Positions 17,337 to 31,086 of a DNA stretch of 64,000 bases are shown piece by piece. The notes below the pieces were generated by a model, which made no database searches, was not told the origin of the DNA, and saw only the letters and a program-made list of their open reading frames with translations. The stretch is from an uncultured Balneola sp. (GTDB lineage: Bacteria > Bacteroidota > Rhodothermia > Balneolales > Balneolaceae), in NCBI GenBank assembly GCA_913058495.1, contig CAJXQC010000006.1, forward strand, positions 1 through 64,000, given 5' to 3'. Position numbers and translations under genes: made by a program. Numbering within the stretch: the first letter of the stretch is position 1; every line of letters starts with the position of its first letter.

Positions 17337-18269
17337 ATGTCGCATACAATTTTAGTAATAGACGATGATGAACCAATTCACATCATGGCAAAGAGTTTAC
17401 TTGGAAAAGAATTTCAACTGGTGAATGCAAGAGACTCTCAGGAGGCTATAAATATACTATCTGAAACACCTGTTAATTTAATTCTATCGGATATTCATAT
17501 GCCGGGGTTATCCGGTTTGGAATTGTTGGAGTCAATCAGGGATGATAAAGAAAAGAGCAAGATCCCTGTACTTATCATGACAAACCTTCCAACTGTCGAG
17601 AAGGAACAAAAAGCCTTAGACCTTGGAGCTGTTGATTTTATCAAAAAAGAACGTTTCAACACAGACCGTGAAGGGGTTATTGAGTTGGTAAGAATGAAAA
17701 TTCTAACTGATGTTAATGTAAAAGGACTGGATGAGGATCTGGAGAAAAGTAAGAATAAGCTTGTAATGAAATTGATGGAGTCAGCAATTAAAGGATCATT
17801 TACTGATACGGCTGAAACTTTTTGTACTTACTTATCAGATATTCTTAATAGTGACCTTTTAACCTTCTTTGTATTAGAAGAAGGAAATCCTAAGCCACTT
17901 ATTGTTCATGGAGATATTAAACCATCTGATGCTGATTTCTCTACCTTTCAAAACTCTAACTCTTTTGATCACTTAAACACTAAAAAAGAATCCTATCTGA
18001 GCAATCATATCTATAATGAGGAATTCGGATGTTTTCTGGACTTCTCTACCAAAAATGAAATGCCGGCAGAAATAGGGGTTCCATTGTTTTCAGCAAATGA
18101 GAAGGCAATGTTGATGAATAACCTGAGTGCACCTGCAGAATCAGAGCTTTTTGGAATGTTAATAGTTAAGCGATCAAAGCTATTTTCAAGTAAAGAATTT
18201 GAATTAATTTCCAGATTAGTAACTCAAACCGGAGCAATACTTTGGAGGCTTTACCAGAAAAATAAATGA
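17337..18269 (+). CDS. Receiver-GAF protein
   Basis: A 310-residue protein. Residues 4-120 are a receiver domain with Asp52 (LILSDIHMPGLSG), T in LIMTN and K in FIKKE. The remaining 170 residues form a GAF-like sensor fold (AETFCTYLSDILNSDLLTFF ... GVPLFSANEKAMLMNNL ... FGMLIVKRSKLFSSKEFELI). There is no DNA-binding or GGDEF output. Canonical Pel operons encode PelD, a membrane GAF protein with a degenerate GGDEF that binds c-di-GMP; this gene may supply a GAF input in place of PelD, but it lacks membrane segments and the c-di-GMP site, so that is inference. It overlaps the next gene by 4 bases. Confidence 0.85.
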   Translation: MSHTILVIDDDEPIHIMAKSLLGKEFQLVNARDSQEAINILSETPVNLILSDIHMPGLSGLELLESIRDDKEKSKIPVLIMTNLPTVEKEQKALDLGAVDFIKKERFNTDREGVIELVRMKILTDVNVKGLDEDLEKSKNKLVMKLMESAIKGSFTDTAETFCTYLSDILNSDLLTFFVLEEGNPKPLIVHGDIKPSDADFSTFQNSNSFDHLNTKKESYLSNHIYNEEFGCFLDFSTKNEMPAEIGVPLFSANEKAMLMNNLSAPAESELFGMLIVKRSKLFSSKEFELISRLVTQTGAILWRLYQKNK

Positions 18270-19453
18270 GTCTGAATAATACTTCCATTTTACTGATCAT
18301 TGAAGGAACCTATCCCTGGTACAGAGGGGGAGTTAGTGAATGGGTCTATCAATATTTGAAAGAACTGGATAGTTATGATTTTCATATTCTTCAAGTAGCT
18401 ACAGATGAATTTAAACAGCTTGATCCTTATAACGCTCTTTATCCTATTACAGAAAATGTTAAGTCATTTACCCGCGTACCTCCGCCAACTTTGAAATCTG
18501 ATTGGGAAACGGCTAAAGAGACCTGGTTTCAATCTATTGTTGAATCGGTTCCTGTTTATAAATACGATACCATTCATGTAACCAATACGGGTTTTGCAGG
18601 TTGGTTGGGTATCCGAATATCTGATTTTTTTAATGCTCCACTTGTGTTAACTGAACACGCTTTATATTGGAAAGAGGTAGAGAAAGGAGCAGTGGCTTTG
18701 GAATGTGGCTACCAAATACCTGATAATTTTGAAGCAAAATCAGAAATAGTAGATATTTTTAAGCAAATTGCATCTGAAGTTTATTCGTCGTCAGAAGAAG
18801 TTGTTTCTGTTTCGAGGGTAAACATCCCTTATCAGAAACAATTTGGAGCAGACTCGCCGAAGTATATTCCCAACGGGGTTCCAACTGATTTGTTAACACC
18901 GGATAAAAAAAGGACGAATACACCGGTTATAGGATGGATTGGAAGATGTGCGGAAATGAAAAATCCTAAACTGTTCTTTGAGATTGTGGAAGTATTCCAA
19001 AGCAGGTCTCTGGATGTGAGTTTTGTTATGATGCTTAGTGATGCAAATGAAAAAGAACTTGAGCAGGAAGTAAGAGCATTGGCAAAAAAGCATCCGGAAG
19101 TAACCATGATATGGAATGAACCTGCTCATCAGTATTTGCATCAGTTTGATATGTTGTGCATTACCAGTCATAACGAATCTCAGCCTTTAGTCATGTTTGA
19201 AGCGCTATCAAACAAAGCCTTGCCCATTGGTTGGGAGGTTGGAGATCTTACTTCAGAATTTGGTTTCGTGGTTCCATCAGGTACTAGCACAAATACTCTG
19301 GTTGATCAGGTAAGTGCTCTTTGGGAAGATTCACCGAAATTCAATGAGTTAACAGAAAGTAAATATGATCTGGTAGCTTATAATCATACATGGACTTCCA
19401 TATTTAAGAAGTACGACGAGCTTTTCCGGGAACTTTTAGTTGAAGATGCTTAG
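18266..19453 (+). CDS. Glycosyltransferase, PelF-like short paralogue (GT4)
   Basis: A 395-residue GT-B protein. The N-terminus LLIIEGTYPWYRGGVSEWVY has the E-G-(T/S)-Y-P-x-x-x-G-G-V-S-x-W signature of PelF-type transferases. The donor domain begins VIGWIGRCAEMKNPKLF (about residue 221). It holds the E-x7-E nucleotide-sugar motif in ESQPLVMFEALS and the preceding CITSHN. It is about 130 residues shorter than the PelF-like protein encoded next, mostly because the middle insertion is missing. Two PelF relatives in one operon suggest either two transfer steps (a mixed or branched polymer) or a priming enzyme plus a polymerase. It overlaps the upstream gene by ATGA and the next gene by one base. 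Confidence 0.87.
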   Translation: MSLNNTSILLIIEGTYPWYRGGVSEWVYQYLKELDSYDFHILQVATDEFKQLDPYNALYPITENVKSFTRVPPPTLKSDWETAKETWFQSIVESVPVYKYDTIHVTNTGFAGWLGIRISDFFNAPLVLTEHALYWKEVEKGAVALECGYQIPDNFEAKSEIVDIFKQIASEVYSSSEEVVSVSRVNIPYQKQFGADSPKYIPNGVPTDLLTPDKKRTNTPVIGWIGRCAEMKNPKLFFEIVEVFQSRSLDVSFVMMLSDANEKELEQEVRALAKKHPEVTMIWNEPAHQYLHQFDMLCITSHNESQPLVMFEALSNKALPIGWEVGDLTSEFGFVVPSGTSTNTLVDQVSALWEDSPKFNELTESKYDLVAYNHTWTSIFKKYDELFRELLVEDA

Positions 19454-21045
19454 TGATGGAAGAAGTAAAACCGGTTGTATTATTTGAAACAGAGGGCTCT
19501 TATCCATTTAGTGGAGGAGGAGTAAGCACCTGGGCTCACATATTATGTACAGAGTTACAGGAAGAAGTGGATTTTCATCTGATGGCAATTACCGGTAATC
19601 CATTCGTGGAGCCTCGTTATAAGCTTCCTAAGAATATAACAGATATTATCCATATTCCGCTTTGGGGAGTTGAAGAACCTGTCCATTATTTTGATAAAAC
19701 AATTCCGTTCTCGGGTCAAATTGAAAAAAAAGCCAGAACTACAAAAGAGGTAGTTAAACAACACTTTCTGCCATTATTTAGAGATTTTATTTCATGCCTG
19801 AATGATCCATTTCAGGATGTAGACAAGATCAGTGATGTCATATATGGATTCTGGAAATTCTTTCAATATTACGATTATAAAATAACCATGAAGGAGCCCA
19901 TGCTTTGGGTAGTTTTCAAGGATTCACTTCACGAAAAGTATGTTGAGAATTATGATCCTGAGTTAGGAGATACACCAAAAGTGATCGACATGACTTTTGG
20001 GATGAGGTGGTTATACCATTTTTTAATGCCCGTCGCATCTCCGATACCCAAAGAAGTAAATATCTCTCATTCTACCTTAGCCGGCTTTCCGGCTTTAGCT
20101 TCTATTGCAGCTAAGTATGAATATGGGATTCCAAGTATGGTAACGGATCATGGAGTGTATATGAGAGAACGCCTTATCAATGTTGGCCGCTCTGATATGA
20201 CTTTCTTTTCCAAAAAAATGCTTGTAGATCTCTCTACAATGATAACAAGAGCTGTTTATCATACTGCTGATCAGATTTCTCCTGTTACTACGGCAAATCA
20301 GAAATGGGAAGAACGCTTTGAAGCTAAACCCGAGAATATTTTACCGATTTATAATGGTGTGGATACAGATCTTTTTAAACCTACACCAAAACCTACTAAG
20401 ACTGAAGGTACGCCAACGGTAATAGCAGTGGCTCAGGTATTTCCGCTAAAAGATATCGAGACAATGATCCGAACGTGTGCTGTAGTTCGGAAAACTATCC
20501 CAAACGTACAATTTACAGTATACGGTAGTTTGGATGTTGATGCAGAGTATGTTGAAACATGCAGGGAACTTATCAAAGATCTTGATCTGGAGGAAAATTT
20601 CACGTTTGGAGGGTTTCATAACAATCCAAGTATGATCTTTAATGAAGGGGATATTTCAATTCTAACTTCCATATCTGAAGGGTTTCCGTATACCGTGATT
20701 GAATCAATGAGCTGTGGACGTCCTGTAGTTGCAACCGATGTTGGAGGAATAAAAGACGCGTTAGAAGGATGCGGAATTCTTTGCAAGCCACGTTCTCCGG
20801 AAGAGATTGCTGAGGGAGTCGTTCAGTTATTGGAAGATACAGATTTGAGAATTGAACTGGGAAATAAGTCCCGTGAGAAAGTACTTCTTAATTTTACTAC
20901 AGACAGATCAGTTAAAAATTATCTTGAATCCTACAAACTACTGGCAGCTAAGCCAAGAGATCCTTTAAAAAATAAAGTGAAGACAGAGTCAGTATTAAAC
21001 CTTCTTGAATATCTAAAAGTTAAGAGGTTGGCTCATGCAAACTGA
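19453..21045 (+). CDS. pelF: PelF-type exopolysaccharide glycosyltransferase
   Basis: A 530-residue cytoplasmic GT4 enzyme of the PelF family. The N-terminal DUF3492-type region starts VLFETEGSYPFSGGGVSTWA and includes PLWGVEEPVHYFD and SHSTLAGFPALASIAAKYEY, then VTDHGVYMRERL. The donor domain begins near residue 315 (TVIAVAQVFPLKDIETMI) and has SEGFPYTVIESMSCGRPVVA with E-x7-E and GGIKDALEG. In Pseudomonas, PelF polymerises UDP-linked GalNAc/Glc-type sugars into Pel. Length matches (about 500). The start may be the GTG at 19453, overlapping the previous stop, or the ATG 3 bases on. It overlaps the PelG-like gene by 11 bases, the usual PelF-PelG order. Confidence 0.92.
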   Translation: MMEEVKPVVLFETEGSYPFSGGGVSTWAHILCTELQEEVDFHLMAITGNPFVEPRYKLPKNITDIIHIPLWGVEEPVHYFDKTIPFSGQIEKKARTTKEVVKQHFLPLFRDFISCLNDPFQDVDKISDVIYGFWKFFQYYDYKITMKEPMLWVVFKDSLHEKYVENYDPELGDTPKVIDMTFGMRWLYHFLMPVASPIPKEVNISHSTLAGFPALASIAAKYEYGIPSMVTDHGVYMRERLINVGRSDMTFFSKKMLVDLSTMITRAVYHTADQISPVTTANQKWEERFEAKPENILPIYNGVDTDLFKPTPKPTKTEGTPTVIAVAQVFPLKDIETMIRTCAVVRKTIPNVQFTVYGSLDVDAEYVETCRELIKDLDLEENFTFGGFHNNPSMIFNEGDISILTSISEGFPYTVIESMSCGRPVVATDVGGIKDALEGCGILCKPRSPEEIAEGVVQLLEDTDLRIELGNKSREKVLLNFTTDRSVKNYLESYKLLAAKPRDPLKNKVKTESVLNLLEYLKVKRLAHAN

Positions 21046-22663
21046 AGAAAGAGATATTATTCTTGAAAAAGAAGATCTGTCAGTGATTGAAGAATTGACT
21101 CAGCAGGTTTATGACCTGATCGGAAATCCTTTAAGCGTGTGGGCAGTAGCTGCTACAATTGAGTCGCTTGGAATAAGAGATGTGGATGCAAATACCGATT
21201 ATGGATATAAGAGTGTTTTTGATTTAGCAGAGGAAGTATTTAAAAGGCTTAAAAAGCATATAAAGGGCAAGTATGAGGAAGAAAGTGAATCAGAGTTTAA
21301 GCTTGGTGATGTAGGAGAAAGTTTTAAACTCTTCTTTAAACATTTTGGTATGGGAGTGCTTTTTACCATGCCAATGATTTCTCAGATTGCAGCAATTATT
21401 ATTTTTGAATATGCACTATGGGCTTGGTTTCGGTTTAATGTAGCTCAGGCAACCATGATAGCGATGGGGACGATAGGGGCTTTCATCATTACAGGTGGTT
21501 TTATTCAGGTGCTAGGAAGGCTTGTTTCAAAATATATGGGGGAAACAAATTACTATTTAAGCTGGAAAGCTATTAAAGCAGTAATGTATTTTGCCATTCC
21601 TCTTGTTCTTGGAATTGCCGCGCTCGTTTTTGTAGTAAATGTAATTCTTCCTTTTTATCCTCAAAGAATGGTAACAATAGGGCTCACCTATTTTATACTG
21701 ATCTCCAGTATGATGCTTTCAGCTGCCGTTTTGTACGCTTCCCAACAAAAGCTGATTATTTTAGGAAGTATTTTAGCAGGAACACTTTCCGTTGCTTTTG
21801 GAATGGAAGTACTTGATTGGGGGATTTATCTCTCGCAATGGTTAGGAATAGGAATAACCACAGGATCACAGATAATTTATATAATAATTTATTACCAATT
21901 TAAGATCAGATCTAACCGTCAGCGATTGTATAAACAATCTCTGCCTAATCTTGAGGTAAGCTACTATAATACCTATCGATATTTCTTGTATGGTTTTGGG
22001 TATTTTTCTTTTCTGTTTGTGGACAGAATTTTGGCATGGTCTGCCGGGCCACCGCCACCGCCCTATATCATCTGGTTTAATACTCCTTATGAATTGGGAA
22101 TGGACTGGGCGTTATTGAGCTTTATATTTACAATAGCGTTACTGGAGTTTATAATTCATTTATTTTCGCACAGGATTATACCTGCTCAAAAGAAAACGCA
22201 GATAGATAAGCTTAAAAAATTCAATTTATACTTTAGCAATTTTTATTCATTACAGTTGGTACTACTCTTTTTTGTTGGAATAATATCCATTGTATTGACT
22301 TATTACGGAGTGGAAGCTTTAAGAGTTTTTGAAGATGATTATCCTGAAATAAGAGACTTCTTTGCAAATCCATTAACCTTTAAGGTGTTTTGGATGGGAA
22401 GCATTGGCTACTTGTTTTTGGTTTTCGGACTATTGAATTCACTATTCTTTTTTACAATGAATAGGCCGGAATATGTACTTTATTCTATGCTCGCAGCATT
22501 AGCAGTTAATGCACTTACAGGCTATATATGTAGCAGAGTAATAGGATTTGAATATGCTGTAGTAGGTTTGATTGCAGGCTCAATTACATTTGCAGCAGTT
22601 ACCGGATTAATCGGTAAAAGATTTTTTAAACATTTGGACTATTTTTATTACTCTGCATACTAA
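21035..22663 (+). CDS. pelG: PelG-like polytopic inner-membrane transporter subunit
   Basis: A 542-residue protein with a cytoplasmic N-terminus of about 105 residues and some 12 membrane segments from about residue 108 (MGVLFTMPMISQIAAIIIFE) to the end. The motif YRYFLYGFGYFSFLFVDRIL, then AWSAGPPPPP, corresponds to the position where PelG proteins have an aromatic, Asp-containing helix and an exposed loop. PelG is the membrane partner of PelD/PelE/PelF and is thought to move the growing polymer across the inner membrane. The long soluble N-terminus is larger than in the Pseudomonas protein. Position directly after pelF and an 11-base overlap support the call; the sequence likeness is moderate. 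Confidence 0.75.
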   Translation: MQTEERDIILEKEDLSVIEELTQQVYDLIGNPLSVWAVAATIESLGIRDVDANTDYGYKSVFDLAEEVFKRLKKHIKGKYEEESESEFKLGDVGESFKLFFKHFGMGVLFTMPMISQIAAIIIFEYALWAWFRFNVAQATMIAMGTIGAFIITGGFIQVLGRLVSKYMGETNYYLSWKAIKAVMYFAIPLVLGIAALVFVVNVILPFYPQRMVTIGLTYFILISSMMLSAAVLYASQQKLIILGSILAGTLSVAFGMEVLDWGIYLSQWLGIGITTGSQIIYIIIYYQFKIRSNRQRLYKQSLPNLEVSYYNTYRYFLYGFGYFSFLFVDRILAWSAGPPPPPYIIWFNTPYELGMDWALLSFIFTIALLEFIIHLFSHRIIPAQKKTQIDKLKKFNLYFSNFYSLQLVLLFFVGIISIVLTYYGVEALRVFEDDYPEIRDFFANPLTFKVFWMGSIGYLFLVFGLLNSLFFFTMNRPEYVLYSMLAALAVNALTGYICSRVIGFEYAVVGLIAGSITFAAVTGLIGKRFFKHLDYFYYSAY

Positions 22664-22672
22664 GGACATCTT

Positions 22673-24295
22673 ATGAGTAAAGACGTAAAAGACTACATAA
22701 ATATAATAGGGAGCAGGCTTGGAAAAGCCTTTGCGATAGATTCGTTTGGAACTGAAGAAGAGCTTGAGTTTTGGGCTCTTTCGGCAGAGCATATGTCTCG
22801 TAAGCAAAACCCAACATTTCAGAATATAATTACCTGGATTGATCTGTTGTATCAGGCTCCTGTGCATTTTGTGTATAAACTGGAAAAAGAGCACTTAATA
22901 CTCATAAAAAGACAATTAATATCAGAAAATCTGCTTCCTGATAAATCCGGAGGAGGGAAGCCTGGTAAAGTAGATGCACAAAGAACTCAGTTTATTCAGG
23001 ATTTCGAAAATCAAATGCAGAATCTTGAGAAAAAGAGGCAATGGGACGAAGACTTTAAAGAGCACGGGGTTTCTGCTCACACAATCGGAAATTGTGAGCA
23101 TATCCCGCTCTACAAAAAGACTGGAGAATTTTGGGGCATATATGTAATAGGGCCTAATATTAAAAGCCCTGAAAACATGGTTCCAAAGTTTTCAATAGTA
23201 AGTAGGTTGCTTTCTTCGTGGCTGATTAAATTAGATGAGCAGGAAAAAGAATCCCAGAAAGAATATCAGGATAAAGTTCATGGTTTAGTCGGGGAACTGG
23301 GTATCGGTGCGTTAAATACAACGGGAATTTCTGAACTTTTACTTTTATACATAATCAATTCTTTACAGGCTAAATCCGGCGCAGTTGTTGAATATAAGAA
23401 TGGTGCTCCTGTACTTATTGCTTCAAATAGCCTTGATGAGCAATACTTGAAAGCACTTTTAGGGCTCTCTGGTGAAAAAATGTATGATCTGGCTGAAAAC
23501 GACTTCAGTTTATCAGAAGCAGGTAAAGAGATTGTAAATAAGCTGGATGTTGAACCACTGTTTTTGCCATATATATCAGAAGAAGTAAAAGGTTTTATCT
23601 GGATAAACAGAACTGAAAGAAACGAAGCTAAAGATTCAAGTCCTGTGCTTAATGATATTTCTGAGATCGTAGCAAAACTTTTCGAATTCAGAGATGTTAA
23701 TAAAAGTTTCTCAGATGATCTGCTTGATGCGTTCTATAAAATGCTTCGGGCAATCGAGGCAAAAAGAGAGAAAACAAAATATCATTCACCTAGAATGATC
23801 GCTTTTGTTGAAATGTTTGGAATGCTTTTTGGATTGGATAATAATGAAATGGAGATCATTAAGACTACTGCAAAACTTCATGATATCGGATATGTAGGTG
23901 CAGCAGGAATAAGTTCTTTGGCGAGTATAGGTTCTGAACTGGCTCATCCTATTGCAGGAGCAACCATGATCAGTAATTTGCCTGTTCATAATGATATTAT
24001 TGAAGGTATTAGAACTCATCATGAATGGGTAAATGGAAAAGGTACTCCTAATGAGATCAGAGGGGAAGATATTCCGTGGACGGGAAAAATTATTTCCGTG
24101 TATGAATTTGTGGTAGACTTTTTTGAATCAAATCCGGAAGTAGCGCCCGAAAAAGAAGAAGAAATGTTGGAAAAGCTGAAATCCAGCTTGATAGAGCGCG
24201 CGGATGTTCAATTTGATATGGTTTTAATTCCTACAGTTATACAACAACTAACTATGCTCGGTTGGTCAGGTTGTGCGCAATTAGGAGTTGAATAA
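22673..24295 (+). CDS. GAF-like/HD-GYP-related protein with degenerate GYP motif
   Basis: A 540-residue soluble protein. Residues about 60-180 and 200-340 look like two sensor folds (ISELLLLYIINSLQAKSGAV ... VKGFIWINRTERN is GAF-like). Residues about 365-500 are an HD domain: H403-D404 in AKLHDIGYVG, His in ELAHPIAGATM, and H449-H450-E451 followed by WVNGKGTP. In HD-GYP phosphodiesterases the last motif is HHExxDGxGYP. Here the Asp is Asn and GYP is GTP, while the metal-binding His/Asp residues are kept. It could be a c-di-GMP phosphodiesterase with altered specificity, another nucleotide phosphohydrolase, or a c-di-GMP sensor. It lies inside the polysaccharide operon (9-base gaps on both sides). 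Confidence 0.82.
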   Translation: MSKDVKDYINIIGSRLGKAFAIDSFGTEEELEFWALSAEHMSRKQNPTFQNIITWIDLLYQAPVHFVYKLEKEHLILIKRQLISENLLPDKSGGGKPGKVDAQRTQFIQDFENQMQNLEKKRQWDEDFKEHGVSAHTIGNCEHIPLYKKTGEFWGIYVIGPNIKSPENMVPKFSIVSRLLSSWLIKLDEQEKESQKEYQDKVHGLVGELGIGALNTTGISELLLLYIINSLQAKSGAVVEYKNGAPVLIASNSLDEQYLKALLGLSGEKMYDLAENDFSLSEAGKEIVNKLDVEPLFLPYISEEVKGFIWINRTERNEAKDSSPVLNDISEIVAKLFEFRDVNKSFSDDLLDAFYKMLRAIEAKREKTKYHSPRMIAFVEMFGMLFGLDNNEMEIIKTTAKLHDIGYVGAAGISSLASIGSELAHPIAGATMISNLPVHNDIIEGIRTHHEWVNGKGTPNEIRGEDIPWTGKIISVYEFVVDFFESNPEVAPEKEEEMLEKLKSSLIERADVQFDMVLIPTVIQQLTMLGWSGCAQLGVE

Positions 24296-24304
24296 ATTTC
24301 ATTA

Positions 24305-25159
24305 ATGTATAAGAAGTTATACCTGATTATTATCTATTTGCTCACTGTAAATTGCATATCATCCAGTAATAAGCTGTCAGAAGATTCCGTCTATGACTCC
24401 TTTGGAGTTGTGTATTCTGATATCAATCCTTCTATAGTTTCCGGTTATAAGCTGTTGATTGTAGAGCCGTATTTTTACAGCAAGCAAGATATCATCGAAT
24501 TCCATTCAAGAGGAATAAAGGTAGTAGCTTATCTTTCTTTGGGAGAAGTCAACGAATCCCGAAGATATTTCAGTGATTTCAAAAAGATAGGTTTGATCGG
24601 AAAGAATGAAAATCATGGTTCATACTACATAAATCTTTCCGAGAATAGAATAAAAGAAAAATTTATCTATGAAATTGTTCCGGAGTTACTTTCCTATGGA
24701 TATGATGGTCTTTTTCTGGACACCATAGACGCTGTGGCTCCGTATACACTCAGAAGAAGTATGGAACAGGACATGGTCGATTTGATATCAAGTATAAGAA
24801 CCCGAAACCCTGATAAGTTGCTAATTCAAAATGCAGGTTTATTTCTGTTGGATAAAACAGCGACTTATATTGATGCTGTGACGATTGAAGCTGTAGCTTC
24901 GGGTTATGATTTCGATAAAAGTGAATATCAAATCAAACCGGAAACAGAGTATGAAGAAAGACTTGAATTCATAGATTCTTTACATAATAACTACAAAGTT
25001 CCGTTTCTGATCATAGATTTCGCTGAAAATTACGAAACTTCTTTACAAGTTAAATCCAGATTAGAAGATTCCGGATTACCTTTTTTCATAAGCAATATTG
25101 AATTCCGGGGATTGCCAAACTCTTTAGGTAGATCATCAAAATTAAAGAAGGGAGCATAG
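24305..25159 (+). CDS. GH114/PelA-hydrolase-like lipoprotein (endo-alpha-1,4-galactosaminidase type)
   Basis: A 284-residue protein with a short hydrophobic leader and a Cys at about 17 (LLTVNCISSS), an acceptable but not ideal lipobox. The catalytic barrel follows the GH114 plan: LLIVEPYFYSKQDI, VVAYLSLGEVNESRRYF, SYGYDGLFLDTIDAV, LIQNAGL, DAVTIEAVASGYDF. The acidic residues in GLFLDT and TIEAV sit where PelA-type hydrolases have theirs. In Pseudomonas the equivalent domain is the N-terminal part of PelA (GH166-type) and cuts Pel; here it is a stand-alone gene. It would trim polymer in the periplasm. It is one base from the next gene and 9 from the HD gene. Confidence 0.85.
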   Translation: MYKKLYLIIIYLLTVNCISSSNKLSEDSVYDSFGVVYSDINPSIVSGYKLLIVEPYFYSKQDIIEFHSRGIKVVAYLSLGEVNESRRYFSDFKKIGLIGKNENHGSYYINLSENRIKEKFIYEIVPELLSYGYDGLFLDTIDAVAPYTLRRSMEQDMVDLISSIRTRNPDKLLIQNAGLFLLDKTATYIDAVTIEAVASGYDFDKSEYQIKPETEYEERLEFIDSLHNNYKVPFLIIDFAENYETSLQVKSRLEDSGLPFFISNIEFRGLPNSLGRSSKLKKGA

Positions 25160-25160
25160 T

Positions 25161-27221
25161 ATGCCATATTGGTTGATCGTGTTTCTTTCTATAGCCCGGC
25201 TGGTTCTCTTTTTTGTGATCCTGTTTTCATGGATAGGTCCCAAATTCCTCCCTCATACCAAAAAGTTACATGGAATTGATAAGATGCTTTACAGTTGGAT
25301 CGGTATTGGGGGTACTATTATACTCACAATTTTTATTCTTACGATACTGAATCTGTATGATTTGATTAGCATATTTAGTGTTTTGATTTTGATCCCTATT
25401 CTTATTTCGTTCTTTAAGGAATGGAGAAGTGGAACATCTATCGGATCTATTTTTAAAGTAATAGAGAATAAAATAGTAGCTAATCAAGTAAGGGTTATTG
25501 AATCTATAAAAGTATTTACCTACCAGGGATTAAAAGATAGGTTTTCTGGTAAAAGAGAATTTTCAATTTATGAGAACAGATATAATATTGCTGCTGTAAC
25601 TATTGGTATTATATCTTGTATTGTCCGTGTTATTCCTGTTTTAAAGAATGCGGCACCGTACAGCAGGGCATGGTATTTCGAACTCGATGAAGTCAAGAAT
25701 ATCAGACTTCAGCAATATTTTGGCGAATTGCCAATTCCAAAAGGAATGCACTCTCTAGTTGGTATGTTCAGCAACTTGACACAGGTAGGGCCGGAGCTTG
25801 CTCTTAGTTTATTGGGCAGTTTAACTAGCTTTTTATTGACGATTATAATTTTTTGGCTGATCCGGGAAATCACAAAAGGTAAACGATTAAATGCTGCATT
25901 ATTCGGAGCCAGTATCTTTGCTCTTATTCCTACATTATTAACTCCAATAAGTCTTGAAGCTGAAACCGGAATTAATACAATTCTGTTAGCCCTTTGTTTT
26001 GCTCTTCCAACAGCTTTTATTTTTGTTCGAAACCTCAGGTCAGTTGACAAGGCACCTTGGTTTTATGTGACTATGGGAATTATCGCAACTGCCCTTACTG
26101 ATATATTTGTTCTGTTAATAGTGTTATTGCCTTTTTTGATATATGGATTACTAGCTATTCCCAGAAAGAGATTTGGTATTAACTTGATTAAAATTGTTAC
26201 CTATTTAGTTGTTGTCTTTTCAGTTTCGTTAAGTCCTTATATTATCCATTTGATATTAATGGGGCAGGATATTAATTCATTTTTTGAATTACAGCTTTTA
26301 GACACCCTTATATTTAGTTATTTCCCTTTCTTAATTACTGATATAGAAGCTCTGAGTTCAATATATCTTTATATAACCGGAGGCTTGTTTATTGTCTTTT
26401 TGATCCTTCATTTCGTTCAAAAAAAGAAACGCTTCGCAGATGAATTAGTCTATTTTGCAATGTTCGGTTCGGTGGCTTTTCTGTATTCTTCTCATAACAA
26501 CCTGGATATATCATTTATAGATTTAGATCAGGTTAATGCTTTTTATGCAATTCTTATTTCTGTTTTATGTGGACTGGTTTTCTATGCCTTATATACTATA
26601 ATAGAAGTAGTAATGAATATAAAACATCGTTTCGTTAGCTATAGCCAACCAATCCTAATGGTTTTATTAGTGGGTGGTGGGGTATTCCTTGCCGGTGGAG
26701 TAAATACGGGCAAAACATTGCCACAAACACTGCCGAATGGTTTTTTTGAATCTTACTACAGTATAATCAATGAAAGGCTTCCTTTTACCTATGCAACGGT
26801 AAGTCCTCCTATTGATAATGCATTGTCCAAGAACAGACATTATTTTATGAATTATGATTTCTTTCTAGGAAGCTATGGAAATATAGATTCTCTGTATCAA
26901 GAGTATCTTGAACTTCCCAAAGAGCTCAGGCCTGATACCGCGAATATTCCTCCTGCAAGTATATTCGTTTTTATACAAAAACCACCTTACGAATCAATAC
27001 AGCAAGGAATTTTGTTTGAACCGGGAGAGCAGATGCTGGCATTAAGTGAATGGATTTCTAAATATAACTCATTGCCGGGCAGAGAGGTTCTCATATATAG
27101 AGAAACAGAGGATGCAATAATCTACGAGATAATAAATCAGAAAGACGGATCTAACATAGGTGATATTTTGATGAATATTTACCCAAAAGAGGAAGGGCGT
27201 GCGGCTAAGCTATTTAAATAA
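25161..27221 (+). CDS. Polytopic membrane protein, GT-C-like
   Basis: A 686-residue protein with roughly 13 membrane segments over residues 1-520 and a C-terminal soluble domain of about 150 residues on the outer side (ESYYSIINERLPFTYATV ... ASIFVFIQKPPYESIQQGIL). After the fourth helix an acidic loop reads RAWYFELDEVKNIRLQQYFG, reminiscent of the first periplasmic loop of GT-C transferases, where an Asp/Glu acts in catalysis. Canonical Pel operons have no such protein; PelE, which has two helices plus TPRs, is missing here. It may modify the polymer, supply lipid-linked sugar, or serve as an assembly subunit. The family is not firmly recognised. Its end overlaps the next gene by 23 bases. 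Confidence 0.7.
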   Translation: MPYWLIVFLSIARLVLFFVILFSWIGPKFLPHTKKLHGIDKMLYSWIGIGGTIILTIFILTILNLYDLISIFSVLILIPILISFFKEWRSGTSIGSIFKVIENKIVANQVRVIESIKVFTYQGLKDRFSGKREFSIYENRYNIAAVTIGIISCIVRVIPVLKNAAPYSRAWYFELDEVKNIRLQQYFGELPIPKGMHSLVGMFSNLTQVGPELALSLLGSLTSFLLTIIIFWLIREITKGKRLNAALFGASIFALIPTLLTPISLEAETGINTILLALCFALPTAFIFVRNLRSVDKAPWFYVTMGIIATALTDIFVLLIVLLPFLIYGLLAIPRKRFGINLIKIVTYLVVVFSVSLSPYIIHLILMGQDINSFFELQLLDTLIFSYFPFLITDIEALSSIYLYITGGLFIVFLILHFVQKKKRFADELVYFAMFGSVAFLYSSHNNLDISFIDLDQVNAFYAILISVLCGLVFYALYTIIEVVMNIKHRFVSYSQPILMVLLVGGGVFLAGGVNTGKTLPQTLPNGFFESYYSIINERLPFTYATVSPPIDNALSKNRHYFMNYDFFLGSYGNIDSLYQEYLELPKELRPDTANIPPASIFVFIQKPPYESIQQGILFEPGEQMLALSEWISKYNSLPGREVLIYRETEDAIIYEIINQKDGSNIGDILMNIYPKEEGRAAKLFK

Positions 27222-30200
27222 ATACTTACTTAGTTCATTACTATTTCTTGTTTTAATGGTTCTAAATAAGCCGTTAAATGCACAAAATGAGATAGCGCCA
27301 ATTATAATTCTGCATAGTTCGTCTGATGAGTTTTCTACTGAAGTTACAAGCGAGTTGATTGAAGCATTTAAATATCCGGAATTCAAGTATGAAATCCTGG
27401 ATCTGGATAAATCCAAAAATATTCCAATAGATAAAAAAACCAATCTTCTTATCAATACCAGTTCGAATATAACTTCAATAGATGATAAAGAGCTAAACAA
27501 GATCATAGACTATTTAGGTAAGGGTGGTAAAATGATCTTTTTTGGTACTGTAACAGATGAAAGATTTGCATATATCCAAGGGATAAAGGCCGGAGCCGAT
27601 TATAGCATTGATCAGACAGTTCGTGGAATTAAAGGAGTTGAAAATATATTTCCTGGTTATAAAGGAATGGAGTTTTATTCAAATTTCAGCATTCCTCATA
27701 ATCGGTTAAAGAAGAGCAGTTTTACTGATCAAATTAGAGTACTTGCAACTGCTGTAACCGACGAGGATTACCCTATACTTTTTGAAAATAGTATTGGGCT
27801 TGGAACTGTAATGGTATTTAATAGTTATGTGCTTTATGAAAAAGACTACAGAGGGTTAATGTTTTCCTCCGTAATTAAAATGTTACCACATTTACCATAC
27901 AGAAATGCAAATGTGGGTACTATTTTTCTGGATGATTTTCCTGCCCCGCTTTATAATACTAAGTTAGAACCTATTGCTACAGAATACGATGTAGAGCAAG
28001 CAGACTTTGTCGCAAATATTTGGTGGCCGGATATGCAAAAACTTGCTGATTCTTTGTTGATCACATACTCAGCCATGACTGCATTTAATTATAATGCAAA
28101 TATAGTACCTCCATTCGATTACATAGAGTGGACATCAGCAACCATAAGAAGAAAGAATCGGCTAGTTAAAGCGAGTGTTTATCTGGCTCAGGATATTGCT
28201 GAGTCCAGGCATGAACTAGCGTTTCATGGCTATAACCATTTTTCATTATTGAATGAAGAATGGGATTCTAATTCATCGTTTATGGAATCAGCTTTAAACT
28301 CGGTTAAAAAGAGATGGAGAGTTGATGATCTTGGGCTGCTTCCAATAACCTATGTCCCTCCAACTAATTTTATTGATTCAACCGGAATACAGGCTTTAAC
28401 AAGAGCTATGCCCTCGATAAAAGTTCTTAGTTCTTTATATCTGGGAGAAAAAGAATATGGAGGAGCCAGAGGTTTTGGCCCGGACCCATATTCAGATAAA
28501 TTATTTAATTACCCAAGGATATCAAGTGGGTTCAATATAGAAGGGAATTCAGTTTTTAATCAGCATAGTATGCAGCTACTCACCGGGGTTTGGAATCATT
28601 TTGTTCATCCCGATGATGTATTTCAAGTTGTTCAACGAGAAGCAGATGCGTTTGAAAGCAGAAACTCTGATAATCTAGGCTGGAGATCTACTCCGGATAC
28701 TACCACTTCACTCTATCAGGAGTTTCTTAAAAGATTAAGCCATACAAAAAAACAGTATCCTTTTTTACGATTGGTTTCTGCAGACTATGGAGCAAATATA
28801 GCTCAAGATTGGTTGAATGCAGATTCTGAATATCTGGAAACGGATGATCAGTATCTTGTGAATGTAATACCGCCTGATACTTATAAATCATCCAGTGAAG
28901 ACAAAGAAGAGAAGTATTGGTTTATGTATGTGCCAAGAGAAGACCGGTCTGATATTGAAAAGCATTTAAGTAAAATAGTAGATGGGTATACTTTTTCAAG
29001 GTTTTGGGATGGCTATCTTTTTCATTTTTATTCGAAAAAGAATCTGATAAATATTCCTAAGCCAAAATCACTTAACAGAACTTCCAGAGAGCTGGAATCA
29101 GGTTTAGCATTGGCGAAAAATAGATTTAATACTTATCTGACAAATCCTTTTTATTTAGCTGCTTCATCTGTAACGGTTGAGCCTGAAATTACCTTTGAGC
29201 AACAACTTTCGGATGCGATAAACAGATATTTACGAAGTCCTAAAAGCATTCAGGCTCAGGAAGAGTTAATTGAACTTAGTATTGAAAATGATGAAGCAAT
29301 GCGTGCAATTCAAATTCTTGAGTTCAGGTTAAAGTCTACTCCTGACTGGCGAAAAAGTGACATAGATCGATTGGTCACTTACTATGGATTTGAAAGTGCT
29401 TATACAAGAGCTGAGAACTTTCTGGAAGAGCTCTGGAGAAAATACGGTGACGAGAAGGTTATTCTTTTAAAAAACAGAGTAGCTGAACAGCTTGGTTTAT
29501 ACTCACCTGAATTTGTAAAGAGGTGGAGACTAAGAGAAATTGAAATTTATGGTGAAACGAATGAAACAGTTCTTGCTTATGTAAATGCTGTTGAAAGTGC
29601 TGAAACCTGGCCGGAGATAAAGCAAAGGTTAAGAAGTCTGATAAATATCGATCCGCGAAATGATAGCTTGTACGCATATACAATTCAAAGATCGTTTTAT
29701 TATGAATCAGCAGATAGCACCATTGCATTGCTGGAAGAGTTTCCTGAGTGGTCTCATAATCAGTTAAATGAATTTGCGGGGCAATTTGCTAGCATATACG
29801 GTTATCAGCTTTTTGATTACGATAAAGCTTTGTATTGGGCAGAACGATCAGATAGTATCTCAAACCGAACTAAATTAGAATGGATAGCTCAACAAAATGA
29901 ACTGGATCAATTTTATGCTATTAGTAAGGATTATTTACGGAATAACCCCGGTAACGATTCCTTAAGGGTGTTTGCAGGTACAACTCTCTATTATCTTGGC
30001 TTTAAAGAAAGAGGATATGAAATCATGTATCCTTTATTCGGTAGAGGAAAGAGTACCGAAACCGAAGCTCATCAGTTGATAGAAGAGGAATTTAAATTTA
30101 TCACTTATAAAGACAAGAAAAATCTTTTCAGAAGATACCCGAACTTCTTCTCAGAGAAGGAAGAAAAGATATTTAAAACTGATCTACGATGGAATGAAGG

Positions 30201-31086
30201 AGTAAGAGCATCTTTGTTTGGTGAATATTTCTCTGACAATTTTGATAATCAATCTGCCAGAGGAGGAGTGTCGGTACAATTTGGGAACAGATTGGATAAA
30301 TCTCACTTATTTAAATTGGAAGATATTTATGTAAATGACAGAGTGGGGAACCAGAATTTCTTTTCTAACTTTACAGGTATTGGATATGAATTTGAGAACA
30401 GAAAAGAAGATTATAGCCGTGTCTTTAGATTTGGTCCATCTCTATTTTATGGGGAGGAAGGTATTCTGGGAGAAGCTTTTGTTTCCTATTCAATAAGCTA
30501 TGATTCTACATTTACGGCACTTAACTTGTCGATTGAACCTGAGTTTACCCGCCAGGCTATTGTACAGGATATCTATAAATTGAAGGGCGAATTCTATAGA
30601 GAAGATCCCTGGTTAAAAAATAAATTCCTGACAACGGTGTCCGGATCGGGACAGGTTTATACAAATGAAGTGTTCGATTATTCTGTAACGGGAAGAGGTT
30701 ACATCCAGCCTTGGGGAACTCCATTCAGAGGAAGATTGATTGGAGAGTTAGGTTGGCAAGATGCTTCAAAAAGCTTCCCGAATGCTGAACCATTTTTTAC
30801 TCAGGATAATTATTTGCTGAAGGGTTTAGGTTTTGATTTAAGATACCGAAGTCCTAATGATTTTAGCTATGATTCTTTATTTGAATTAGAATTAATGGGA
30901 AAACATGCCTCAACGGATGGGTACTTCTTAACAGGACGTGCAAATGTGGAACATAAATTTAAAAAGTTTTGGCAGATAAAAGTGGGTACTGAGTTTTCAA
31001 CAAGTTCTGTATATCAGTCAAATAGAATATTCTTTACCATTTCTCATTTTTTTAAATACAAGCTAAAACGTCCCGAACAAAAATAA
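27199..31086 (+). CDS. DUF2194 deacetylase-like + TPR + outer-membrane barrel fusion (PelA-PelB-like)
   Basis: A 1295-residue protein with a signal peptide (residues 8-28, LLSSLLFLVLMVLNKPLNAQ). Residues about 28-230 look like a Rossmann/reductase-like segment (IIILHSSSDEFSTE ... KMIFFGTVTDERFAYIQGIK). Residues about 237-630 match the DUF2194/polysaccharide-deacetylase plan: metal Asp in NVGTIFLDDFPAP and the H-x3-H zinc pair in HELAFHGYNHFSL (342-346), then VWNHFVHPDDVF. Residues about 665-990 are helical repeats of TPR type. From about 997 to the end the chain alternates like a beta-barrel and closes with FFTISHFFKYKL. In Pseudomonas these activities are on two proteins: PelA (deacetylase) and PelB (TPR plus porin), which bind each other. 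Here they are one chain, apparently joining modification to export. Confidence 0.83.
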   Translation: MRLSYLNKYLLSSLLFLVLMVLNKPLNAQNEIAPIIILHSSSDEFSTEVTSELIEAFKYPEFKYEILDLDKSKNIPIDKKTNLLINTSSNITSIDDKELNKIIDYLGKGGKMIFFGTVTDERFAYIQGIKAGADYSIDQTVRGIKGVENIFPGYKGMEFYSNFSIPHNRLKKSSFTDQIRVLATAVTDEDYPILFENSIGLGTVMVFNSYVLYEKDYRGLMFSSVIKMLPHLPYRNANVGTIFLDDFPAPLYNTKLEPIATEYDVEQADFVANIWWPDMQKLADSLLITYSAMTAFNYNANIVPPFDYIEWTSATIRRKNRLVKASVYLAQDIAESRHELAFHGYNHFSLLNEEWDSNSSFMESALNSVKKRWRVDDLGLLPITYVPPTNFIDSTGIQALTRAMPSIKVLSSLYLGEKEYGGARGFGPDPYSDKLFNYPRISSGFNIEGNSVFNQHSMQLLTGVWNHFVHPDDVFQVVQREADAFESRNSDNLGWRSTPDTTTSLYQEFLKRLSHTKKQYPFLRLVSADYGANIAQDWLNADSEYLETDDQYLVNVIPPDTYKSSSEDKEEKYWFMYVPREDRSDIEKHLSKIVDGYTFSRFWDGYLFHFYSKKNLINIPKPKSLNRTSRELESGLALAKNRFNTYLTNPFYLAASSVTVEPEITFEQQLSDAINRYLRSPKSIQAQEELIELSIENDEAMRAIQILEFRLKSTPDWRKSDIDRLVTYYGFESAYTRAENFLEELWRKYGDEKVILLKNRVAEQLGLYSPEFVKRWRLREIEIYGETNETVLAYVNAVESAETWPEIKQRLRSLINIDPRNDSLYAYTIQRSFYYESADSTIALLEEFPEWSHNQLNEFAGQFASIYGYQLFDYDKALYWAERSDSISNRTKLEWIAQQNELDQFYAISKDYLRNNPGNDSLRVFAGTTLYYLGFKERGYEIMYPLFGRGKSTETEAHQLIEEEFKFITYKDKKNLFRRYPNFFSEKEEKIFKTDLRWNEGVRASLFGEYFSDNFDNQSARGGVSVQFGNRLDKSHLFKLEDIYVNDRVGNQNFFSNFTGIGYEFENRKEDYSRVFRFGPSLFYGEEGILGEAFVSYSISYDSTFTALNLSIEPEFTRQAIVQDIYKLKGEFYREDPWLKNKFLTTVSGSGQVYTNEVFDYSVTGRGYIQPWGTPFRGRLIGELGWQDASKSFPNAEPFFTQDNYLLKGLGFDLRYRSPNDFSYDSLFELELMGKHASTDGYFLTGRANVEHKFKKFWQIKVGTEFSTSSVYQSNRIFFTISHFFKYKLKRPEQK

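Follow-up and report, generated by a model that had tools for sequence, protein, structure and literature searches.

A predicted deacetylase, TPR solenoid and exporter-type outer-membrane barrel in one polypeptide of a Pel-like locus from Bacteroidota

Biofilm polysaccharides are modified and exported by separate proteins whose contacts couple the two steps (PelA–PelB, PgaB–PgaA). A gene from an uncultured Balneola sp. raises the question of whether both functions can be united in one polypeptide and, if so, whether this polypeptide is PelA joined to PelB. The gene is located at positions 27199–31086 (forward strand) of a 64,000-nucleotide stretch of DNA, here called the window (assembly GCA_913058495.1, contig CAJXQC010000006.1, positions 1 to 64,000). 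A preliminary description, made from the sequence alone, had proposed that a deacetylase, a TPR scaffold and an outer-membrane barrel are contained in this one chain and had equated them with PelA and PelB. In our analysis, the domains and their order, the metal-site motifs, the class of the barrel, the operon context, the wide conservation and the unfused neighbors in an outgroup could be read from sequence or from structure models. Based on these, we consider it likely that the fusion protein constitutes the periplasmic and outer-membrane end of a Pel-like exopolysaccharide system in Bacteroidota, where it would deacetylate and export the polymer.

In order to define the architecture of the protein, the frame was analyzed by Pfam search and AlphaFold2 modeling. 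The features of the gene are as follows:

27199..31086, forward strand: fused DUF2194 deacetylase–TPR–16-strand barrel protein, 1295 amino acids (open reading frame; PF09960, E 3.8e-73; AlphaFold2 models; 88 distinct fused homologues)
27199..27285, forward strand: signal peptide, residues 1–29, ending in AQN (sequence; position of the lipobox Cys in most homologues)
27286..27888, forward strand: ThuA/GATase-like mixed alpha/beta domain, residues 30–230 (AlphaFold2 model; ThuA-like proteins with Z ~15)
27889..28821, forward strand: predicted CE4/CE18-type deacetylase barrel, residues 231–541 (AlphaFold2, fold matches, sequence match to 9zau)
27925..27939, forward strand: FLDDF, residues 243–247, with presumed catalytic base D245 and metal ligand D246 (invariant)
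28225..28239, forward strand: HGYNH, residues 343–347, with presumed metal ligands H343 and H347 (invariant)
28597..28617, forward strand: HFVHPDD, residues 467–473, with H467 or H470 as presumed catalytic acid His (H467, H470, D472 and D473 invariant)
28822..29058, forward strand: small beta-rich linker domain, residues 542–620 (AlphaFold2 secondary structure)
29083..30198, forward strand: TPR-like solenoid of ~20 helices, residues 629–1000 (AlphaFold2; profile match to consensus TPRs)
30202..31053, forward strand: 16-strand outer-membrane barrel, residues 1002–1285 (AlphaFold2; BcsC/PgaA/PelB fold matches)

The frame starts with GTG, whereby this codon and the upstream AGAGGAAGG are kept in four close relatives. 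Pfam assigned residues 26–556 to DUF2194 (PF09960) with 247 bits against a gathering cut-off of 30.4 and yielded nothing convincing for the remainder, and PADLOC gave no defense-system match. A first AlphaFold2 model of residues 231–1295, built on a 70-sequence alignment, had a mean predicted local distance difference test score (pLDDT) of 89 and a predicted template modeling score (pTM) of 0.48; it contained the deacetylase fold, ~20 helices at 629–1000, which form about ten TPR-like hairpins, and exactly 16 strands at 1002–1285. A second model of residues 30–625 (pLDDT 93.6, pTM 0.92) comprised the ThuA/GATase-like domain, the deacetylase and the small beta-rich part. Thus, the co-occurrence of deacetylase, TPR scaffold and barrel in a single chain was borne out, as was the expected layout with TPRs near 665–990 and a 16-strand barrel from ~997. 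The suggested domain order was also right, except that the N-terminal ThuA/GATase-like domain had been missed.

For the N-terminal half, a single-protein search yielded one clear sequence relative with a solved structure, the DUF2194 protein 9zau (E 1.5e-40). Structural comparison of the deacetylase part by VIA-align led to the identification of HP0310 PgdA (Z 16.5) and, with the longer chain, of Agd3 (Z 15.5 over 510 residues, which is nearly the whole DUF2194 region) and human NDST1 (Z 15.3). Agd3 is the fungal galactosaminogalactan deacetylase. Alignments of 23 and of 70 homologues show no variation at residues D245, D246, H343, H347, H467 and H470. FLDDF and HGYNH had been named correctly before, whereby the histidine numbering H342/H346 was off by one and has to be H343/H347. 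With an Asp-Asp and HxxxH metal site, a catalytic His and a CE4-like fold, motifs and fold matches together suggest that the DUF2194 part is a metal-dependent deacetylase of the CE4/CE18 type.

The C-terminal half resembles polysaccharide exporters. The closest solved structures to the barrel together with the last helices were BcsC (Z 23.7), PgaA (Z 23.4) and PelB (Z 22.4), followed by other porins with Z of at most 16 (VIA-align). In the model the fusion thus belongs to the BcsC/PgaA/PelB class, within which the three neighbors are practically tied. It has the PelB-type architecture of a TPR solenoid running into a 16-strand exporter barrel, and the TPR character is also visible at the sequence level, where the C-terminal profile matched consensus TPR proteins with E 5e-5. 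A second copy of the exporter half was not found elsewhere in the genome. It could also be that the barrel serves only as an anchor in the outer membrane, for display of the deacetylase, since barrels commonly serve as anchors among outer-membrane proteins and the lumen of this one is neither clearly cationic nor anionic. However, the barrel fold is specific to polysaccharide exporters, the solenoid is of the kind found in BcsC, PgaA and PelB, and the core operon holds no other exporter candidate. Moreover, a barrel anchor would be redundant because most members of the family already have a lipid anchor. We therefore regard this explanation as very improbable.

The fused form is widespread. 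DUF2194 was found above the cut-off in 27 of 245 genomes of the same class, 24 of which carry it in frames of ~1290–1650 amino acids. The other three, all from one family (f17), are unfused, with two frames of ~625 amino acids and one longer frame that represents an upstream over-extension in GC-rich DNA. Phylum-wide, all 26 strong matches lie in frames of at least 1268 amino acids (families f1, f22, f31, f39 and f42). A scan of genome contigs added 80 loci (Flavobacterium, Maribacter, Roseivirga, Fodinibius, Gracilimonas, and others), and those not truncated by a contig end all encode the long form. Overall, 88 distinct full-length fused homologues of 1264–1649 amino acids were obtained across Bacteroidota, which excludes chance or misassembly as the origin of the fusion. 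A lipobox is present in ~80 of the 88, and the Cys column at the end of the signal peptide is near-invariant in the homologue alignment; the window protein and its closest Balneola relatives have a plain signal peptide. Two Balneolaceae versions of 1586 and 1649 amino acids, L047:9869-14629 (+) and L024:1851-6800 (-), carry ~300 extra residues after the barrel; in L047 and L090 this extra part shows a weak SPOR-domain match (E 0.004) and perhaps binds peptidoglycan. One further locus, L124 (CALPUN020000057.1), is labelled as a Bifidobacterium breve metagenome-assembled genome and contains a Bacteroidota-type fused gene, clipped at the contig end, and a flavobacterial-type operon; the label most likely stems from a binning error.

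In order to find out whether the protein is literally a PelA deacetylase (CE21) fused to PelB, homologous domain by domain, we compared both halves with the Pseudomonas-type proteins. Such a fusion would account for the same function classes in the same order, for the Pel-like operon, and for the Z of 22.4 between the barrel and PelB in the PelBC structure. In PelA, too, a ThuA-like domain precedes the deacetylase and a beta-rich part follows it (PMC12022489), and the N-terminal half of the fusion shares this order. However, profile–profile comparison gave no signal between the fusion and the PelA deacetylase (hhalign probability 0.3%) nor between its TPR/barrel part and PelB, while the positive controls from the same operons were strong: the PelF family profile matched proteobacterial PelF with E 1e-52 and the GH114 family profile matched the hydrolase domain of proteobacterial PelA with E 1.9e-29. 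This negative result is not absolute because the same test also missed PelG, and a thin template of four sequences can miss remote homologues. The Pfam PelB barrel PF24604 did not match the fusion at E up to 1 and had no match in any of 394 Bacteroidota genomes, whereas 4 of 4 control records were positive. Furthermore, the first motif of PelA is H526-x-D528-x-D530 (PMC12022489), in contrast to the adjacent, invariant Asp pair of FLDDF in the fusion, and BcsC and PgaA are structurally as close to the barrel as PelB. The PelA structure 9CGY was not among the fold matches listed, which carries no weight either way. Taken together, literal identity with PelA deacetylase and PelB, as originally proposed, was not supported and is quite unlikely. 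It is a fair statement, as far as sequence comparison goes, that the module appears to work like PelA–PelB and to be built from different families; descent from PelA–PelB is not shown.

Unfused relatives of the two halves occur side by side. In the outgroup family f17 of the same class, a DUF2194 gene is directly followed by a TPR-barrel gene. The stand-alone DUF2194 gene L042:8239-10119 (-) overlaps by 4 nucleotides with L042:6677-8242 (-), whose product, a secreted TPR protein, ends in a beta-rich part, and in L044 the same gene pair lies 4 nucleotides apart. Among 2086 open reading frames, the two TPR proteins were the top two unfused matches of the fusion's TPR-barrel profile (E 0.0012 and 0.012). 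The two share 50% identity, so the split pair counts as about one independent observation. Beyond these two, a class-wide search for further split forms turned up nothing more than partial matches to the TPR part. In the tree, the split forms and one divergent fused protein, L069, group together as long branches, whereby fusion-first and fission-first scenarios are not separated. In Fusobacteriota, a stand-alone DUF2194 gene is located inside the pel operon, where it follows a GAF gene and precedes pelF/pelG by one gene, so that DUF2194 appears to be the deacetylase gene in Pel-like operons elsewhere. Directly after pelG, at L157:15040-15957 (+) and L177:14340-16259 (+), Cetobacterium encodes a small secreted beta-rich protein and Fusobacterium two secreted-looking open reading frames; one of these proteins may be the exporter of the diderm Fusobacteriota.

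The neighborhood of the fusion gene in the window consists of the following genes:

18266..19453, forward strand: second PelF-like glycosyltransferase (NF038011, 90 bits, just under the cut-off; Balneolaceae-type loci)
19453..21045, forward strand: PelF glycosyltransferase (NF038011, 150 bits, cut-off 100)
21035..22663, forward strand: PelG-like transporter (PF16933 near full length, 18.3 bits, cut-off 29)
22673..24295, forward strand: HD-domain protein, candidate regulator (PF13487, E 4.5e-13)
24305..25159, forward strand: GH114 hydrolase, separate counterpart of the PelA hydrolase domain (PF03537, E 1.5e-12)
25161..27221, forward strand: multi-spanning membrane protein, 686 amino acids (no Pfam or NCBIfam family)

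In ~70 loci a core of pelF, pelG-like gene, GH114 gene, multi-spanning membrane protein gene and fusion gene is conserved, with the fusion usually in last position. The 686-residue membrane protein is regularly encoded directly upstream of the fusion gene across Bacteroidota and is a candidate inner-membrane partner. The HD-domain gene is limited to Balneolaceae-type loci, in most of which it occurs, and to two further metagenome-assembled genomes of Bacteroidota (L088, L089). Its product shows similarity to NosR-family cyclic di-GMP phosphodiesterases and may take over the regulatory role of PelD. Next to the operon in Flavobacterium lies L097:13765-15390 (-), which encodes a DUF4874/DUF4832 protein bearing a sorting tail for the Por secretion system; pel clusters of streptococci are likewise accompanied by DUF4832 genes (PMC7112168).

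Several observations speak against the fusion being the terminal part of a Pel-like system. The PelG-like protein stays below the PF16933 cut-off (25.8 bits in Flavobacterium), so that its assignment is only suggestive. PelD (PF16963) is absent from the genome, whereby the profile detected 2 of 3 control records, and there is no PelC candidate in the conserved five-gene core, a result for which no genome-wide PelC profile search was made; with neither of them found, the locus falls short of a complete canonical pel system. In the electrostatic test for a cationic polymer, the barrel lumen was near neutral with a mean net charge of -0.6, and a cationic cargo therefore gets no support. The low pTM of the long-chain model (0.48) means that the position of the deacetylase relative to solenoid and pore is not established, and the sequence homology of the split forms to the C-terminal half of the fusion is weak. 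It might be that the fusion deacetylates and exports a different amino-sugar polymer, PNAG-like or not, and that PelF/PelG-like enzymes were recruited to it. The equal likeness of the barrel to PgaA and BcsC, the low PelG score, the missing PelD and the second PelF-like enzyme in Balneola would agree with this. On the other hand, a Pel-type operon is indicated by PelF, which scores above its curated cut-off, and by the match of the GH114 enzyme to the PelA hydrolase domain, and DUF2194 occurs in the pel operons of Fusobacteriota. We consider another polymer unlikely, though less so than a literal PelA–PelB fusion.

If the fusion is the outer end of a Pel-like system, PelF would make an amino-sugar polymer, which the PelG-like protein, perhaps together with the multi-spanning membrane protein, would carry across the inner membrane. 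Once in the periplasm, the polymer would lose some of its N-acetyl groups to the fusion's metal-dependent DUF2194 deacetylase, and the attached TPR solenoid would pass the strand to the fusion's own 16-strand barrel for export. The separate GH114 enzyme could cut the polymer, like the hydrolase half of PelA, and in most homologues the N-terminal lipid would also anchor the deacetylase. Here, we infer the identity of the polymer, the deacetylase activity, the export and the path of the strand. Because one chain holds deacetylase and barrel, the deacetylase would be present beside the pore at a 1:1 ratio. The fusion fits, but does not prove, a coupling of deacetylation and export. It had been taken as a Rosetta-stone confirmation of the PelA–PelB interaction; what it supports is the general coupling, and the PelA–PelB contact itself is not confirmed by it. 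Of the PelA and PelB functions, the deacetylase and exporter classes are indeed joined, and the PelA hydrolase half is represented by the GH114 gene. Since the hydrolase is separate, the deacetylase is of the DUF2194 type and the barrel has no PF24604 match, the support is analogous and at the level of classes. A farther-reaching reading, to which we give about an even chance, is that one outer-membrane protein, mostly a lipoprotein, replaces the PelA deacetylase and PelB in a self-contained Bacteroidota Pel-like system, that this protein is built from different families, DUF2194 and a separate line of exporter barrels, so that the coupling of deacetylase and exporter arose more than once, and that DUF2194 is a carbohydrate esterase family distinct from CE21.

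With both functions in one chain, a single structure could cover the whole step from periplasm to surface, and cleavage of the linker could put this step to the test. Furthermore, the fusion indicates that Bacteroidota have a Pel-like system and suggests what DUF2194 does in this phylum. A literature search, with subscription papers and preprints outside its scope, found no description of a deacetylase–TPR–barrel fusion, and in the main text of two 2020 papers on pel operons the term "Bacteroidetes" was not present.

The closest functional parallel is the PelA–PelB–PelC system of Pseudomonas, in which a periplasmic metal-dependent deacetylase is likewise coupled to a TPR-barrel exporter and whose operon shares PelF, a PelG-like protein and a GH114/GH166-type hydrolase with the loci described here. 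In contrast to the two Pseudomonas proteins PelA and PelB, the fusion is one polypeptide, its deacetylase derives from DUF2194 instead of CE21, and the hydrolase has its own gene, whereas PelA carries it as one half. Also, no PF24604 barrel, PelC or PelD was found, and the fusion is usually a lipoprotein. The Gram-positive pelDEADAFG operon (PMC7112168, PMC12345266) likewise has pelF and pelG and a deacetylase, PelADA, separate from the hydrolase, but lacks an outer membrane and a barrel. For the single halves, 9zau shares clear family membership with the deacetylase half, but its chain of 593 residues has neither TPR nor barrel. Agd3 (CE18) and the human NDST1 N-deacetylase are structural relatives of the ThuA-like and deacetylase part (Z ~15) with a sequence identity of ~8–12% and no exporter. 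The exporter barrels of BcsC and PgaA have 16 strands and a TPR domain like the fusion (Z 23–24), whereas the solved proteins carry no attached enzyme domain. A BcsZ–BcsC fusion has been reported in some Zymomonas operons (PMC7112194), where a periplasmic polysaccharide-acting enzyme is also fused to a TPR outer-membrane pore, and an enzyme–pore fusion is thus not new as a kind. There, the enzyme is a hydrolase, the polymer is cellulose, and the fusion is reported for some operons and not phylum-wide. The Balneola-type fusion differs from it in the type of enzyme, in the system it belongs to and in its phylum-wide conservation.

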